The position numbers were made by a program, and so were the translations under genes. 64,000 bases of DNA. It comes from Terriglobia bacterium (lineage in GTDB: Bacteria; Acidobacteriota; Terriglobia; Terriglobales; Acidobacteriaceae). Shown here piece by piece: positions 7,012 to 52,588 of the stretch (position 1 is the first letter of the stretch; each line of letters begins with the position of its first letter). Location of the stretch: NCBI GenBank assembly GCA_021324365.1, contig JAJPJE010000085.1, positions 1 through 64,000 on the forward strand, given 5' to 3'. Below the pieces are notes generated by a model, which saw nothing but the letters and a program-made list of their open reading frames with translations, did not search any database and was not told where the DNA came from.

Positions 7012-8508
7012 ATGAAGTTCCTCGACCTACTGGATGGTGCGGAGGTCCTCTCCGAGACCGGCGATCCCGACATTAAAGGGCTCGAATACGACTCGCGGCG
7101 GGTACAGCCGGGCTTTGCCTTCGTGGCAATGAAGGGTGAGTCGACGGATGGGAATCGGTACATCGATGCGGCCATCGGCAAGGGCGCCGTTGCCGTTGTA
7201 ACCGATTCGGCAGGTGAGAGGCCGCGCCCCAAGGCAGCCTGGGCTCAGGTCGCGCATGGCCGTCGAGCGCTCGCTCGGCTTAGCGCAAATTTCTACGGCC
7301 GTCCGGCTGAGAAACTTGCCAATTCCGGTGTCACTGGGACAAATGGCAAGACCACCACAACGTTTCTGCTCGAAGCCATCCTGCAGGCGGCGGGACGCAA
7401 AGTCGCACTTATCGGAACGATCGAGTATCACGTGGCCGGAGAAGTGATTCCGGCGCCGCATACCACCCCAGAGCCGCTTGATTTGAACCGACTGTTTTCC
7501 GAAGCACTGCAAGCGGGCGCGACCGAGTCGGTGATGGAAGATTCGTCACACGCGCTGGTGCAACAGCGTGTGTACGGGATTCCGTACGATGTTGCAATCT
7601 TCACAAATCTGACCCGCGACCATCTCGATTACCACGGAACTTTCGACGAGTACTTCGCCGCAAAGCGCATGTTGTTCGAGGGCGTGGGTACCGATCCGCC
7701 CCGTGCGGCGATCCTGAATGTTGATGACGAATATGGGCGTGAACTCGTCAACTTCTGCAGGAAGCGCTCGCAGGTCATGACCTATGGTTTCGCGCAAGGC
7801 GATTTCCACGCCGAGAATGCCGAGATAGGCCCCAGTGGTACTCGCTTCGATATGGTTACGCTCGAACGTAAGGTTCCATTGTGGTCACCGCTGATCGGCA
7901 AGGTGAATGTGTATAACATTATTGCGGCGTCGGCAGCGGCGTATGCACGGGGCGTAAGTTTCGATGACGTCGCTCGCGGGGTCGAAGCTCTGCAGCGTGT
8001 TCCGGGACGTTTCGAGCGCGTCGACGCGGGCCAGCCCTTCACGGTAGTGGTCGATTACGCGCACACCGATGATGCGCTGAAGAACCTTACGGCGGTAGCA
8101 AGAGAGTTTGTGAAGCGCGGCGGTTCAGCGGGTAAAGTGATCACGGTCTTTGGCTGCGGCGGCGATCGCGATAAGACCAAGCGGCCATTGATGGGAGAGG
8201 CTGCAGGGCGCGGTAGCGATTTCGTGGTGCTGACGTCGGACAATCCGCGAAGTGAAGATCCAATGGCGATCATTGCTGATGCGAAACCTGGTATCGAGAG
8301 AACTGGTACGCAGTTCGTGGTGGAACCGGACCGGCGTCAAGCTATCGATCTGGCGCTGCATAGGGCTGGTCCGGGAGATATTGTGCTGATTGTGGGCAAG
8401 GGCCACGAGAAGACGCAGACGACCCGCGAAGGCGTGTTTCCGTTCGATGACGTAGAGGTTGCAAAGGCGCTGTTGGAAAAGCAGTCAGCAGGAAGCAATC
8501 AGCAGTAA
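7012..8508 (+). CDS. murE: UDP-N-acetylmuramoyl-tripeptide synthetase MurE (meso-diaminopimelate type)
   Basis: MurE adds the third residue to the peptidoglycan stem peptide at the expense of ATP, in the cytoplasm. The P-loop GVTGTNGKTTTT is at 106-117, the central-domain HTTPEPLDL and SSHAL motifs follow, and the substrate-selecting motif DNPRSEDP is at 410-417. DNPR identifies meso-diaminopimelate-adding enzymes, so the wall is of the Gram-negative A1gamma type. One residue in the usually hydrophobic VMEVSSHAL block is Asp (VMEDSSHAL). The last residues, KQSAGSNQQ, are encoded by a CAGCAG/CAATCAG-type intergenic repeat, so the C-terminus appears to have been extended by repeat sequence. Confidence 0.96.
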   Translation: MKFLDLLDGAEVLSETGDPDIKGLEYDSRRVQPGFAFVAMKGESTDGNRYIDAAIGKGAVAVVTDSAGERPRPKAAWAQVAHGRRALARLSANFYGRPAEKLANSGVTGTNGKTTTTFLLEAILQAAGRKVALIGTIEYHVAGEVIPAPHTTPEPLDLNRLFSEALQAGATESVMEDSSHALVQQRVYGIPYDVAIFTNLTRDHLDYHGTFDEYFAAKRMLFEGVGTDPPRAAILNVDDEYGRELVNFCRKRSQVMTYGFAQGDFHAENAEIGPSGTRFDMVTLERKVPLWSPLIGKVNVYNIIAASAAAYARGVSFDDVARGVEALQRVPGRFERVDAGQPFTVVVDYAHTDDALKNLTAVAREFVKRGGSAGKVITVFGCGGDRDKTKRPLMGEAAGRGSDFVVLTSDNPRSEDPMAIIADAKPGIERTGTQFVVEPDRRQAIDLALHRAGPGDIVLIVGKGHEKTQTTREGVFPFDDVEVAKALLEKQSAGSNQQ

Positions 8509-43637: not shown

Positions 43638-45803
43638 CTATTGCACCGTAAAACTTACCGGAGTCGATTTGAGGTAATGCGAACTCGAATCCACTTCCAC
43701 CAGAGTTGCCGTGTGTCCACCTGATCCAAGTGGAACATTGGCGCTCATGGTCGAGCCCGGATAGTTCCCGATCTTATTGCCATCGACCCAAAGTTCCAGA
43801 TGGTTCACCGAACCGCTGGCAGCTGTCCCGGCGCCTGTGAACTGAACCGGAGAGCTGACCGTGCTTCCCGCGGCGGGGCTACACAGAGTTGCTCCGGGTG
43901 AGGACGGGGCCGAGCAGGTTCCTCCTCCACCGCCGCCGCTGCCCACCGTAAACGTGTCAGGACTGGACTTGAGGTAGTGACCTGTGGAATCCACTTCCAC
44001 CAGAGTCGCGGTATGCGATCCGTTCGCAAGTGCCACACTGGCGCTCATCGTGTTGCCGGGATAATTTCCGACCTTGCTGCCGTCAATCCACAACTCAAGA
44101 TGATTGACACTGCCGCTGGCCCCGGTTCCGGCGCCTGTGAACTGAACCGGAGAGGTAACCGTGCTACCGGGGGACGGAGTGCATAGAACTGCGCCAGCTG
44201 AAGATGGCGCATTGCAGCTACCGCCGCCTCCGCCACCCGTTGAACCTACGCTGAAGCTAACCGGGGTGGATTTGATGTAGTTCGACTTGGAGTCAACTTC
44301 AACCAGTGTTGCGGTATGCGATCCGTTCGGCAACGTCACGCTAGTCGACATTGTGTTTCCGGGATAGTTGCCGATCTTCTGTCCGTCGATCCACAGTTCC
44401 AGGTGATTCACACTGCCGCTGGCGCCAGTTCCCGCGCCCGTGAATTGAACTGGCGAAGGATAGGTTTTGCCCCCTTGAGGTGTGCAAAGCACGGCTCCAG
44501 CCGATGCAGGCGCTTTGCAGGACGAACCTCCTGACGATTGATCATTGAGATAAATCACCAGCCGTCGTGAACCATCTGAGGCAGTTTCGATGATGGCTAT
44601 GTCTGGACTGCCGTTCTTGTCGAAGTCCGCGGCGACGACGTCGGTCACCTGGTCCGTGACCGTCCAGCGTTGCGATTCCTGGTAAGTTCCGTTTGGCTGT
44701 CCATAAAAGATTCCGACGTAATTGATTCCGGTCTGGCTGCTGCTATTGACGGGAACCTCGGCGAAACCAGCTACTGAATCGGCAAGCCCATCGTTGTTGA
44801 AGTCAGCACCCGAGGCCGAGTAGATGTAACCGCCGTAGCCGGCATAAGCATTTTCATCGAAGGTTTGGACGTATTTCATCGCGCCACCGCCTTGGTTTAG
44901 CAGCACTGCAGAATGGCCGTTGAACGAACCGTGCGGTCCCCACTGATAGTCAACCATGGCGACGTCCATTTTGCCGTCGTGGTTCGCGTCGACGAGTCGC
45001 GGGTAGTTGTAGTCGTACCCTAGTTGACCCTGAGTAATCTCTGTCAACGCATAGCGCCCTGTGCCGTCACCTTTGGCGAACCAGAGCGTGCCGGCGGTGG
45101 TAGGAAAATACGCATTGCAGTCAGCGGTGACTACGAGGTCGAGAATGCCATCTCCGGAGAAATCGGTTCCCACCGTGTCGCTGACATTGCACTGATTCGG
45201 TCCGAGGCCATATCCCTGGTAAAGAGTTCCATCGAGATCGAGGTTATTTTGAACGACAGGTGTGCCAAAGTTTCCCGTACCATCACCGGGATAGGTGCTG
45301 ATGGAATTATTGAAGGGTGCTGAGCTGTTTGTGTAGCCGGTAACGGCGAGATCGGCTTTGCCGTCCTTGTTGGTATCACCGATTGCAATACCAGTGCACA
45401 CACCATCGAAGACCGTGGTCCAGCCTTGATGGAAGTTGCCGGTCCCGTCGTTTTCAAAAACGGCAATGGAAGACTGGTTCTGATTGGCAGGGTTGGACAC
45501 GCAAAACGCGATATCCGGCTTCCCGTCCGCGTTCACATCGCCAACTGCTGCGGCACGTACGCCGACGACGCTAAGAATCTGCGGCGACTCAAAATCACCC
45601 TGGCCGTTGTTCAACATTACGGCGTTTGTGGCACCAAAGAAGAGGAGGTCAGGTGCCCCGTCACCGTTAAAGTCGGCGGCGATCATGGTGGATCCTGGCG
45701 CTGGATAAGACTGTGAATGAAATCCGGTTTGGGCGTTGGCGGCGAGAGCAGCTGAAAGCAGCAGCACGAAGAAAAAGCTCGGGAAGCGCAATTCACACCT
45801 CAC
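43638..45803 (-). CDS. Secreted FG-GAP/VCBS repeat protein with three tandem Ig-like C-terminal repeats
   Basis: The 721-residue protein has a Sec signal peptide (about 1-24). A beta-propeller part (about 25-420) carries seven calcium-binding DxNxDGxxD-type motifs such as DFNGDGAPD, DVNADGKPD, DANHDGKMD and DFDKNGSPD. Three tandem repeats of about 100 residues follow (429-529, 530-629, 630-721). Each repeat is built on CxAPxSAGAxLCTP, SPVQFTGAGT and NHLELWIDG, with Gly-rich linkers between them. The repeats are nearly identical, so they arose by recent duplication. It is probably a surface or extracellular adhesion or carbohydrate-binding protein. No enzyme motif is seen. Confidence 0.9.
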   Translation of the reverse strand: MRCELRFPSFFFVLLLSAALAANAQTGFHSQSYPAPGSTMIAADFNGDGAPDLLFFGATNAVMLNNGQGDFESPQILSVVGVRAAAVGDVNADGKPDIAFCVSNPANQNQSSIAVFENDGTGNFHQGWTTVFDGVCTGIAIGDTNKDGKADLAVTGYTNSSAPFNNSISTYPGDGTGNFGTPVVQNNLDLDGTLYQGYGLGPNQCNVSDTVGTDFSGDGILDLVVTADCNAYFPTTAGTLWFAKGDGTGRYALTEITQGQLGYDYNYPRLVDANHDGKMDVAMVDYQWGPHGSFNGHSAVLLNQGGGAMKYVQTFDENAYAGYGGYIYSASGADFNNDGLADSVAGFAEVPVNSSSQTGINYVGIFYGQPNGTYQESQRWTVTDQVTDVVAADFDKNGSPDIAIIETASDGSRRLVIYLNDQSSGGSSCKAPASAGAVLCTPQGGKTYPSPVQFTGAGTGASGSVNHLELWIDGQKIGNYPGNTMSTSVTLPNGSHTATLVEVDSKSNYIKSTPVSFSVGSTGGGGGGSCNAPSSAGAVLCTPSPGSTVTSPVQFTGAGTGASGSVNHLELWIDGSKVGNYPGNTMSASVALANGSHTATLVEVDSTGHYLKSSPDTFTVGSGGGGGGTCSAPSSPGATLCSPAAGSTVSSPVQFTGAGTAASGSVNHLELWVDGNKIGNYPGSTMSANVPLGSGGHTATLVEVDSSSHYLKSTPVSFTVQ
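43641..44519 (-). repeat. Three about 300-bp tandem coding repeats
   Basis: The three C-terminal Ig-like domains are encoded by units at 44519-44217, 44216-43917 and 43916-43641. Stretches such as the GGCGCCTGTGAACTGAACCGG core (plus strand) are the same in at least two units. The high identity makes the array prone to unequal recombination. Confidence 0.85.
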
Positions 45804-46767: not shown

Positions 46768-47433
46768 ATGAATATTGGACCGAACAATCCCTCCGGTTCA
46801 TCGGGAGGGAAAGGGAGGCGGCGTCGTGGACGCAGAGGTGCGTCCGGCAGACCAGGACATTCCGGGCCCGGTCATCACAACAGCCGCAATCAGCAGAATC
46901 AAATCTTTACCCGGCCGATGGATCACAATTACCGAAACGGCGCCTCGCAGGATTTCTCCGGCGGCCGATCTCGAGGACGCGGACCGGCGGTAGCAACCCC
47001 CTACGTACACGCGGAAATCGAACCGGTTATCCACAAAGATGAGAATGCCGCGCCGCGGATATTCGCTTTTGTCGATGATCTATTCTTCCTTGCAAAGATT
47101 CAGGAAGTCGCGCGCAAGCTTAACGTCAAGGTTGAGTTCGTGAAGACCGATAAGGACATCCTGGATCGCGTGCGCAACAACGGGGATGAGAAGCCGTCGT
47201 TGATCATCATTGATCTGAACAACCTTAATGCGAAACCGCTGACGATTATCCCGAAGCTCAAGAAAGAACTGAAAAAGGGAACCGCGATTATCGGCTTTGT
47301 TTCGCATGTGCAGGGCGAGCTGAAGTTAAAGGCGCAGGAAGCAGGATGCGATATGGTACTTCCGCGGTCGGCATTCTCGCAGAATCTGCCTTCACTGCTG
47401 CGTCGTCACGGCACTGCTGCGGAAGCAGAATAG
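46768..47433 (+). CDS. RG-rich disordered N-terminus fused to a receiver-like domain
   Basis: The 221-residue protein has two parts. Residues 1-75 are rich in Gly, Arg, Asn and Ser (KGRRRRGRRGASGRPG, GGRSRGRGP), like RNA-binding RGG tails. Residues about 95-215 have the alternating beta/alpha pattern of a CheY-type receiver: IFAFVDDLFFLAK with an acidic pair (103-104), LIIIDLNN with Asp149 at the phosphoacceptor place, GFVSH with Ser179, and Arg200 where the conserved Lys is expected. Loss of that Lys suggests a pseudo-receiver. No output domain follows. It may bind RNA or ribosomes through the basic tail; this is inference. Confidence 0.75.
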   Translation: MNIGPNNPSGSSGGKGRRRRGRRGASGRPGHSGPGHHNSRNQQNQIFTRPMDHNYRNGASQDFSGGRSRGRGPAVATPYVHAEIEPVIHKDENAAPRIFAFVDDLFFLAKIQEVARKLNVKVEFVKTDKDILDRVRNNGDEKPSLIIIDLNNLNAKPLTIIPKLKKELKKGTAIIGFVSHVQGELKLKAQEAGCDMVLPRSAFSQNLPSLLRRHGTAAEAE

Positions 47434-50327: not shown

Positions 50328-51851
50328 ATGCGTCGGGGTCTGAAGAGAACCTTGAGGTTGCTCCTGCTGGCGAATTTGCTTTCCGTTGCTTCTGTCGGAC
50401 AAGACATGGCCAAGCCGGACATGAACTCGGAGATTTTGCAGCAGCTTCGTCAACTCAGCGTTTCACTGGAAAAGACGCAGGCGCAGCTAGCTGAATCGCA
50501 GCAGGAAATTCGACAATTACGCGCCAAGATCGATGCCATGGAGGCGCTTCAGCAAGGTATCCCAGGAGCTACTGGGAGAAACGAAGCTTCCGCGACCGGT
50601 GTGCTGCCACAGGCCGCAGTGCCGGCTACCAATATTTCGCAAGACGACTGGGAAGTCATGAATGCCAGAGTCAACGAACTTCATCAGACAAAAGTCGAAA
50701 GCGCGTCGAAGTTCCGGGTGAAACTCTCCGGACTGCTGCTGATGAATGCATTCACGGCAAGCGGCCGCACCGATCAGGTCGATCTCCCTCAAATCGCTAC
50801 TGCGGCAGGCGACGGGGTGCCGGATGGATATCCTGGCGCATCGTTCCGGCAGTCCATCATCGGGCTAACGGGATACGGTCCCGACCTGCTTGGGGCGCAC
50901 ACATCCGGCGACATCCAAATGGACTTCTTCGGCGGGCTTTCAAATACCTACTACGGGATGACCGGGGGGATTGCACGGTTGCGGACTGGGCAGATACGGC
51001 TCGACTGGCAAAACACCTCAGTATCGGCCGGTTTACAGACGCCGGTATTTTCGCCGCTTTCGCCGACCTCTTATCTGACCGTCGCGGAGCCTGCGCTTTC
51101 CGCGGCTGGAAATATGTGGACCTGGACACCGCAGATCCGTGCCGAACATCGTTTCGATTTAGATCCTGTTCAGCTCAAAGTTGAAGCAGGTGTTATGGAT
51201 CCTATCAGCGTAGGAGCGGTAACGAGCACCTATCAAAGGTTACCAACACCCGGCGAGAGTTCGAGGCAGCCAGCCTACGAAATTCGCATGTCCGGTGGCA
51301 ACAAGAGTGAAGACCGGCCTTTCGTAATTGGCGTAGGCGGATTCTATAGTCCACAAGAATTCCGTTACGGATACCGAGTGCATAGCTGGGCTTCCACTCT
51401 CGACTGGAGAGTGGGGCTGCTGAAGAATATTCAGCTCTCAGGAGAGTTCTTCACTGGGAAGGGAATGGAAGGGTTTGGCGGAGTCTCCCTCGGTGCGGTG
51501 CAGCCAACCAGCTATTACAATTACACCTACACCGTTTTGCCGCAATTGGACGAACTGACCGGGATTGGCGGGTGGGGACAAGTCAAGTACGCGGTAAATT
51601 CGCGAAGCGAGTTTAATTTCGCCGGCGGATACGGCGGTCTGAACAGCGGGGGACTGCGCAATCTCGCACTAACAGGAGCGGATTACGCGAGTATACCAGC
51701 GCGGAATCAGGCATTTTTCGCAAATTACATTCTGCGCCCTCGGTCCGACCTGCTGCTTTCGGTGGAATACCGGCACCTGCGGACCTTCGGCGTGAACAAC
51801 GGGCCAGACACGGCGGATATTGTTGGATTGGCTGCTGGATTTCAGTTCTGA
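50328..51851 (+). CDS. Outer-membrane porin-like protein with coiled-coil N-terminus
   Basis: The 507-residue protein has a signal peptide (about 1-24) and an alpha-helical coiled-coil segment (about 33-72, ILQQLRQLSVSLEKTQAQLAESQQEIRQLRAKI). A long beta-barrel domain with alternating aromatic/hydrophobic strands ends in a terminal phenylalanine (GLAAGFQF), the outer-membrane assembly signal. GGAGGTGAAGGT precedes the ATG. The layout is that of a DcaP/OprP-like porin with a trimerising helix. It heads an operon with a cupredoxin and a two-component pair. Confidence 0.85.
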   Translation: MRRGLKRTLRLLLLANLLSVASVGQDMAKPDMNSEILQQLRQLSVSLEKTQAQLAESQQEIRQLRAKIDAMEALQQGIPGATGRNEASATGVLPQAAVPATNISQDDWEVMNARVNELHQTKVESASKFRVKLSGLLLMNAFTASGRTDQVDLPQIATAAGDGVPDGYPGASFRQSIIGLTGYGPDLLGAHTSGDIQMDFFGGLSNTYYGMTGGIARLRTGQIRLDWQNTSVSAGLQTPVFSPLSPTSYLTVAEPALSAAGNMWTWTPQIRAEHRFDLDPVQLKVEAGVMDPISVGAVTSTYQRLPTPGESSRQPAYEIRMSGGNKSEDRPFVIGVGGFYSPQEFRYGYRVHSWASTLDWRVGLLKNIQLSGEFFTGKGMEGFGGVSLGAVQPTSYYNYTYTVLPQLDELTGIGGWGQVKYAVNSRSEFNFAGGYGGLNSGGLRNLALTGADYASIPARNQAFFANYILRPRSDLLLSVEYRHLRTFGVNNGPDTADIVGLAAGFQF

Positions 51852-52588
51852 TGAATAAGCATCGGCACACTTCGCGGTTCGCTTTTCTCGTGGCTGGGTG
51901 GATATTCCTGTCGGCTTGTTTTTGCGTAGCTCAGGACTTGGGTGCAGTGACCGCCGAGATCAATGTTGTCCGGAGCGAGCAAAAGCAAGGAAAGGCATTG
52001 CCAGATAATTCTGAAGTGGTCGTATGGCTTTCTCCGCTCGATAGTTCAGTTGCTCAAAGTCGCACAAAGCCCAGCCGGCATTACCAAATGCTGCAGCGGA
52101 ATAAACACTTTAAGCCGGCGTTGCTGGTAATACCTGTGGGAACAGTTGTCGAGTTTCCAAACAAAGATCCCTGGTTTCATAATGTTTTCTCCCTCTACCA
52201 GGGCAAGAAGTTCGATCTTGGACTGTACCAGGCGGGAAGCACGCACTCGGTGCACTTCGACAGACTTGGGGCGTCCTACATCTTTTGCAACATCCACCCG
52301 CAGATGAGTGCCGTCGTTCTAGCAATCGACTCAGAGTACTACGCGATCTCTGATCCATCTGGAAAGGTAACACTCGAGGACATTCCTCCGGGACAATATC
52401 ACCTTCGCGTCTGGTACCAGGGCGCCTCGCAGAAGGCGCTGGATGCATTGCAGCGGGACATCACAGTTACTTCCGGCAGAAGAGATTTGGGCGTGTTGAA
52501 AGTGACAGCCAATCCTGCCGCCCAGGTGGCGCATAAGAACAAGTATGGACAGGATTACGATCCGGATGGCGCAACGCCTTCGTACTGA
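51851..52588 (+). CDS. Cupredoxin-domain protein (type I copper)
   Basis: The 245-residue protein has a signal peptide (about 1-28) and a plastocyanin/azurin-like domain (about 60-160). The likely copper ligands are His110 in PWFHNVF, then Cys146, His149 and Met152 in FCNIHPQM, all in the correct order. A C-terminal beta domain (about 165-220, carboxypeptidase-regulatory-like, SGKVTLEDIPPGQYHLRVWYQG) follows. It is a periplasmic electron carrier or copper-binding protein. Its ATG overlaps the porin stop by one base (TGATG), so the two are co-translated. Confidence 0.9.
   Translation: MNKHRHTSRFAFLVAGWIFLSACFCVAQDLGAVTAEINVVRSEQKQGKALPDNSEVVVWLSPLDSSVAQSRTKPSRHYQMLQRNKHFKPALLVIPVGTVVEFPNKDPWFHNVFSLYQGKKFDLGLYQAGSTHSVHFDRLGASYIFCNIHPQMSAVVLAIDSEYYAISDPSGKVTLEDIPPGQYHLRVWYQGASQKALDALQRDITVTSGRRDLGVLKVTANPAAQVAHKNKYGQDYDPDGATPSY

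Follow-up and report, generated by a model that had tools for sequence, protein, structure and literature searches.

Stand-alone receivers without a folded output domain are represented by CheY, Spo0F, DivK and MrrA, and receiver folds with altered key residues by FrzS, BldM and other atypical receivers (PMC12632262). In AmiR-type ANTAR proteins a pseudo-receiver is joined to an RNA-binding domain (PMC7496416), while in Bacteroides Rho a single lineage has extended a conserved domain by a disordered polar low-complexity region (PMC10284900). How bacterial pseudo-receivers work has been called a mystery (PMC12632262). A test case for this question is provided by a 221-residue protein encoded in the 64,000-nucleotide stretch of DNA analysed here (the window), in which a basic tail precedes a divergent stand-alone receiver.

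Among known kinds, the protein comes closest to the atypical single-domain receivers, to which it adds a tail peculiar to its lineage. With CheY, Spo0F, DivK and MrrA it shares the phospho-acceptor aspartate (Asp149) and the acidic pair as well as the absence of a folded output domain, but it differs from them in the conserved Lys and the T+1, K-3 and D+8 positions and in its long, basic, disordered and motif-bearing tail. Contrary to the set of FrzS and BldM, it retains the phospho-acceptor Asp together with the acidic pair and possesses no other folded domain. The combination of a receiver-like domain with a putative RNA-binding part is reminiscent of AmiR (PMC7496416), yet the three-helix ANTAR domain is missing, the basic part precedes the receiver and lacks a fold of its own by prediction, and no known RNA element was found nearby; neither the protein nor its relatives match the C-terminal ANTAR domain PF03861. 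Unlike the region in Bacteroides Rho, the tail is fused to a receiver domain and contains one strict short motif. The preliminary description of the locus regarded the fusion as non-standard. A basic tail and a divergent receiver are indeed joined throughout the family, and a few queries of the open-access literature returned no description of this tailed-receiver architecture; the idea of a pseudo-receiver with an RNA-binding part is, however, not new, since AmiR-type proteins have it (PMC7496416).

The open reading frame at 46768–47433 on the forward strand, running from ATG to TAG with the coordinates first proposed for it, is a genuine gene. Its frame is kept by orthologues from other genera, and dN lies far below dS in comparisons of the domain with the window gene (for example 0.14 versus 3.2) and, with weaker contrast, below dS in the tail (0.57 versus 1.1), these ratios being rough because saturation left two dS values uncomputable. 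Orthologues are present in 144 of 150 sampled Acidobacteriaceae genomes (about 96%) and in 59 of 62 genera; a second match occurs in just three genomes of this draw, so that the gene is almost always single copy. In the set comprising the own genome and its relatives it was detected in 55 of 61 genomes. Searches of the protein against PHROGs and NCBIfam gave chance-level matches only, and a few open-access literature queries on Acidobacteria receivers, with RGG or stand-alone, and on CheY K109R yielded nothing relevant or usable, respectively. A mobile or viral origin was considered and rejected: plasmids contain no relatives at 1e-5 (a search started from a short relative gives nothing beyond weak matches to response regulators), and none were found in viral contigs. 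Only Acidobacteriota are among the matches listed in a pattern-based scan of genome contigs. The near-universal retention of a single-copy gene for which no Pfam, NCBIfam or literature description was found suggests that it likely does something basic for the Acidobacteriaceae, an abundant soil family.

Residues 94–219 (47047–47424, forward strand) have a receiver (CheY-like) fold in the AlphaFold model, which was built from 56 aligned sequences. The pLDDT of this segment is mostly above 90, and strands and helices alternate in (beta-alpha)5 order. Comparison of the model with solved structures by Foldseek and VIA-align retrieves KdpE, PmrA, Spo0F and other receivers with Z of about 15 and rmsd of 2.4–2.9 over about 120 residues (KdpE: Z 15.3, rmsd 2.6 over 120 residues). 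The Pfam match to PF00072 is weak (E 0.0013) and with 19.3 bits falls below the gathering cut-off of 30.2, a sequence threshold at the level of the family and no test of the fold; 40 of 56 relatives match the same family at E 0.1 or better. When solved structures are searched by sequence, designed TIM barrels score best and receivers come next; the fold comparison shows the receiver. The polypeptide ends a few residues after receiver helix 5, and no folded output domain is present in its 221 residues. The receiver fold and the missing output domain anticipated in the preliminary description are thus both borne out by the model, and the protein is assigned to the receiver superfamily by its predicted fold.

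The active-site region is a mixture of retained and altered positions, counted here over 85 homologues. Asp104 of the acidic pair Asp103–Asp104 (47074–47079) is invariant (85/85), and the position of Asp103 is acidic in 70 of 85. Asp149 at the phospho-acceptor position (47212–47214), whose retention had been noticed from the start, is likewise invariant. At the Thr position Ser179 is found in 81 of 85 sequences, followed at T+1 by His180, also in 81 (47302–47307). The position of the conserved Lys is held by Arg200 (47365–47367) in 79 homologues and by Lys in six (L110, L111, L112, L113, L092 and L093); four of these six have tails and belong to a single genus (g32), so either of the two basic residues can stand at this position. 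Val occupies K-3, an aromatic switch residue elsewhere, in 84 of 85 homologues (Val197 in the window protein), and Pro replaces Gly at D+8 in 83 (Pro157). The conserved residues are located mainly in or beside the loops following strands 1, 3, 4 and 5, and those facing the pocket are among the best conserved across the phylum.

Of the five key receiver residues (DD, D, T/S, K), D103, D104, D149 and S179 are therefore kept and the Lys is exchanged for R200. Replacement of this Lys by Arg is common among the pseudo-receivers and atypical receivers covered by a 2025 review (PMC12632262), according to which T+1 is normally Ala or Gly and bulk at this position may hinder phosphorylation. Judged by the rules given there, the changes at Lys, T+1, K-3 and D+8 point away from normal phospho-switching, whereas the complete acidic pocket and the six Lys-bearing members leave room for phosphorylation. 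The domain is a divergent stand-alone receiver in which phosphorylation is probably impaired. Arg200 had been correctly identified as the replacement of the essential Lys, but taken alone it is thin evidence, His180, Val197 and Pro157 being equally telling. The label pseudo-receiver derived from it is plausible in view of the altered residues, even though the Lys-to-Arg exchange is accompanied by full retention of Asp149, the acidic pair and Ser179 and six of 85 homologues have Lys.

The same residues bear on two alternative functions of the domain. If it were a phosphorylatable single-domain response regulator, Asp149 would take the phosphate, assisted by the retained acidic pair, Arg or Lys200 would sense it and the tail would merely localise the protein. 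The invariance of Asp104 and Asp149, the mostly acidic position 103, Ser in 81 and Lys in six homologues fit such a regulator, but His at T+1, Val at K-3 and Pro at D+8 do not, nor does the sub-threshold PF00072 score, and no conserved kinase gene occurs among the recurring neighbours in 86 neighbourhoods; we regard it as unlikely. Slightly less likely is a ligand site: a small molecule, for instance a nucleotide or second messenger, would be bound by Asp104, Asp149, Ser179, His180, Gln182 and Arg200, and the output would come from the tail. Phylum-wide conservation of the pocket-side residues would agree with this, and a precedent exists in the ShkA pseudo-receiver, which binds c-di-GMP (PMC7010744), but no known ligand-binding motif was found in the protein. 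We tentatively prefer a receiver domain whose main role would be to bind proteins, classical phospho-switching playing little or no part.

The tail comprises residues 1–90 (46768–47037, forward strand), is rich in Gly, Arg, Pro, Asn and Ser and carries a net charge of +11. Residues 1–70 are predicted to be disordered by AlphaFold, with mean pLDDT values of 46–51 per block, and residues 71–90 are intermediate. The first 75 residues, which contain 13 Arg and 16 Gly, had been likened to an RNA-binding RGG tail. What holds of this comparison is the disorder and the basic, Arg- and Gly-rich composition; the motif claim is rejected. The window protein contains no RGG, and its four RG and five GR are near the expectation from composition (shuffle p 0.17 and 0.05). 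In the 51 family tails permutation gives 130 RG observed versus 151 expected and 31 RGG versus 28, and both are almost absent from the tails of some members, so the clustered repeats in excess of composition that characterise an RGG/RG box are not seen. In contrast, RR is found 259 times versus 96 expected, and runs of four basic residues 154 times versus 3.3. Since Arg runs are far above chance and RG and RGG are not, the segment is better described as an Arg-cluster tail. In the window protein such a cluster is formed by RRRRGRR (residues 17–23, 46816–46836, forward strand), and basic runs are conserved in the family.

All 51 family tails are positively charged (+9 to +22), rich in Gly, Arg, Pro, Gln, Asn and Ser, and about 80 to 265 residues long, with short tails of 80–90 residues in the clade of the window protein. 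The seemingly shorter tail of L059 (55 residues) is an automatic start-codon error, as an MNAGP start exists upstream. No second copy of the tail was found in the own genome. For basic tails of low complexity, DNA, polyphosphate or membranes are targets as well.

Within the tail lies a short linear motif that had escaped mention in the earlier sequence-only reading, IFTRPMDHNYR (residues 46–56, 46903–46935, forward strand). Its core PMDHxYR is present in 50 of 51 tails, the one deviating tail (L074) having PMDHNYN instead, and is thus sharply conserved amid otherwise fast-changing disordered sequence. A degenerate DNA pattern for PMDHxYR matches 19 of 37 genomes, once in each and always at the tailed-receiver gene; the sister family f2, represented by 14 genomes, gives no match. 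Within the own family four genomes are not matched, namely three in which the gene was not found (G001, G012 and G018) and one with PMDHNYN (G013). Where disordered sequence changes fast, a sharply conserved motif usually serves to bind another protein, which suggests that PMDHxYR is a protein-binding site and that the tail binds protein as well.

The stand-alone receiver-fold domain is older than the tail and distributed across the phylum, and the tail is carried in the Acidobacteriaceae. Elsewhere in Acidobacteriota the domain mostly occurs by itself, without a tail and with a length of about 120–140 residues, which identifies the tail as an add-on; in a draw across the phylum 117 of 396 genomes contain the domain at E 0.001, the weakest matches being perhaps ordinary receivers. 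Homologues lacking the tail, which the preliminary description had held to speak against its reading, were found outside the Acidobacteriaceae and not inside, and the domain tree restricts the motif-bearing tail to this family. The sole exception inside the family's part of the tree is L095 (genome G422, ORF 7689–8444), a duplicate that has diverged strongly: a long N-terminal region is still there, but PMDHxYR and several core residues are missing (SRVQ, SRPAFSRNL). The tail of L083, from another family of the same class, is short and basic, MHKKPNRQHRRHRGRRPSN...GIYRNPMGQPRH, and looks like an earlier stage of the family tail; in that case the tail would have been lost in the sister family f2 or gained separately, an order of events that is only suggested because the tree is based on 136 columns and many of its forks are open. 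The drift from phospho-switching and the acquisition of a tail with a docking motif can be compared in stages across the phylum. In two relatives from f2, L081 and L082, the tail-less gene is located directly upstream of a gene that, judged by its start, we take to be mnmE (tRNA modification GTPase); the site lies about 360–1760 bases past the match start, the gap between the two genes is 14 bases in L082, and this arrangement is not general.

Most improbable among the alternatives is a tail that, instead of binding RNA, would bind DNA or polyphosphate or bring about condensates, making the protein a nucleoid-associated or condensate factor: tails of up to 265 residues rich in Gln, Asn, Gly and Arg and their resemblance to the phase-separating disordered region of Bacteroides Rho (PMC13269538, PMC10284900) are in line with this, but neither the strict motif nor tails as short as the 80–90 residues of the window's clade would be needed for condensation alone.

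The preferred reading, to which we assign somewhat less than an even chance, is that of a core single-copy adaptor of the Acidobacteriaceae, whose receiver would bind one partner, whose Arg clusters would bind a polyanion and whose PMDHxYR motif would bind a second partner. The clusters may hold the protein on RNA or ribosomes in the first place and on the nucleoid in the second, the motif would recruit one specific partner, and the two partners would be brought together at the polyanion. Computation shows the fold, the conservation, the disorder, the charge and the motif, while we infer all binding steps. The adaptor model is supported by a receiver fold with altered Lys, T+1, K-3 and D+8 positions, by a tail that is always positively charged, has low pLDDT and contains basic runs far in excess of expectation (154 versus 3.3), by a motif that is present in 50 of 51 tails and has no match away from this gene in the 37 genomes searched, and by the combination of a core gene (144/150) with a tail and motif confined to one part of the tree. 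It is weakened by the lack of an RNA-binding domain, of an operon partner and of a conserved neighbour pointing to RNA, by the complete acidic pocket and the six Lys members, and by the other targets that basic tails bind. A more far-reaching version, in which a receiver freed from the classical phosphorelay has become an RNA- or ribosome-tethered adaptor through the gain of the basic disordered tail and its new docking motif, and serves as an Acidobacteriaceae-specific hub of post-transcriptional or condensate control, appears doubtful.

The surroundings of the gene were evaluated as a clue to function and rejected as such. In the window the gene stands alone, with a small ORF without Pfam match upstream and a glycoside hydrolase family 88 gene on the opposite strand downstream. 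Throughout 86 neighbourhoods only convergent genes recur in the family, namely one that we assign to the HIT family by reading its sequence (21 loci) and another one (22 loci), and none names a partner; no recurring co-directional gene, operon partner or RNA-pointing neighbour was detected. Neither known RNA families near the gene nor a sigma-70 consensus promoter were found, the latter result being uninformative. Further away in the window, 43638–45803 on the reverse strand encodes a secreted-looking protein of 721 residues that contains FG-GAP repeats and, in its C-terminal part, three Ig-like repeats (Big_7) that closely resemble one another. On the forward strand, 50328–51851 encodes 507 residues without Pfam match, by reading a probable outer-membrane protein, and overlaps by one base with 51851–52588, whose product matches fn3_3 and, below the cut-off, CarboxypepD_reg.
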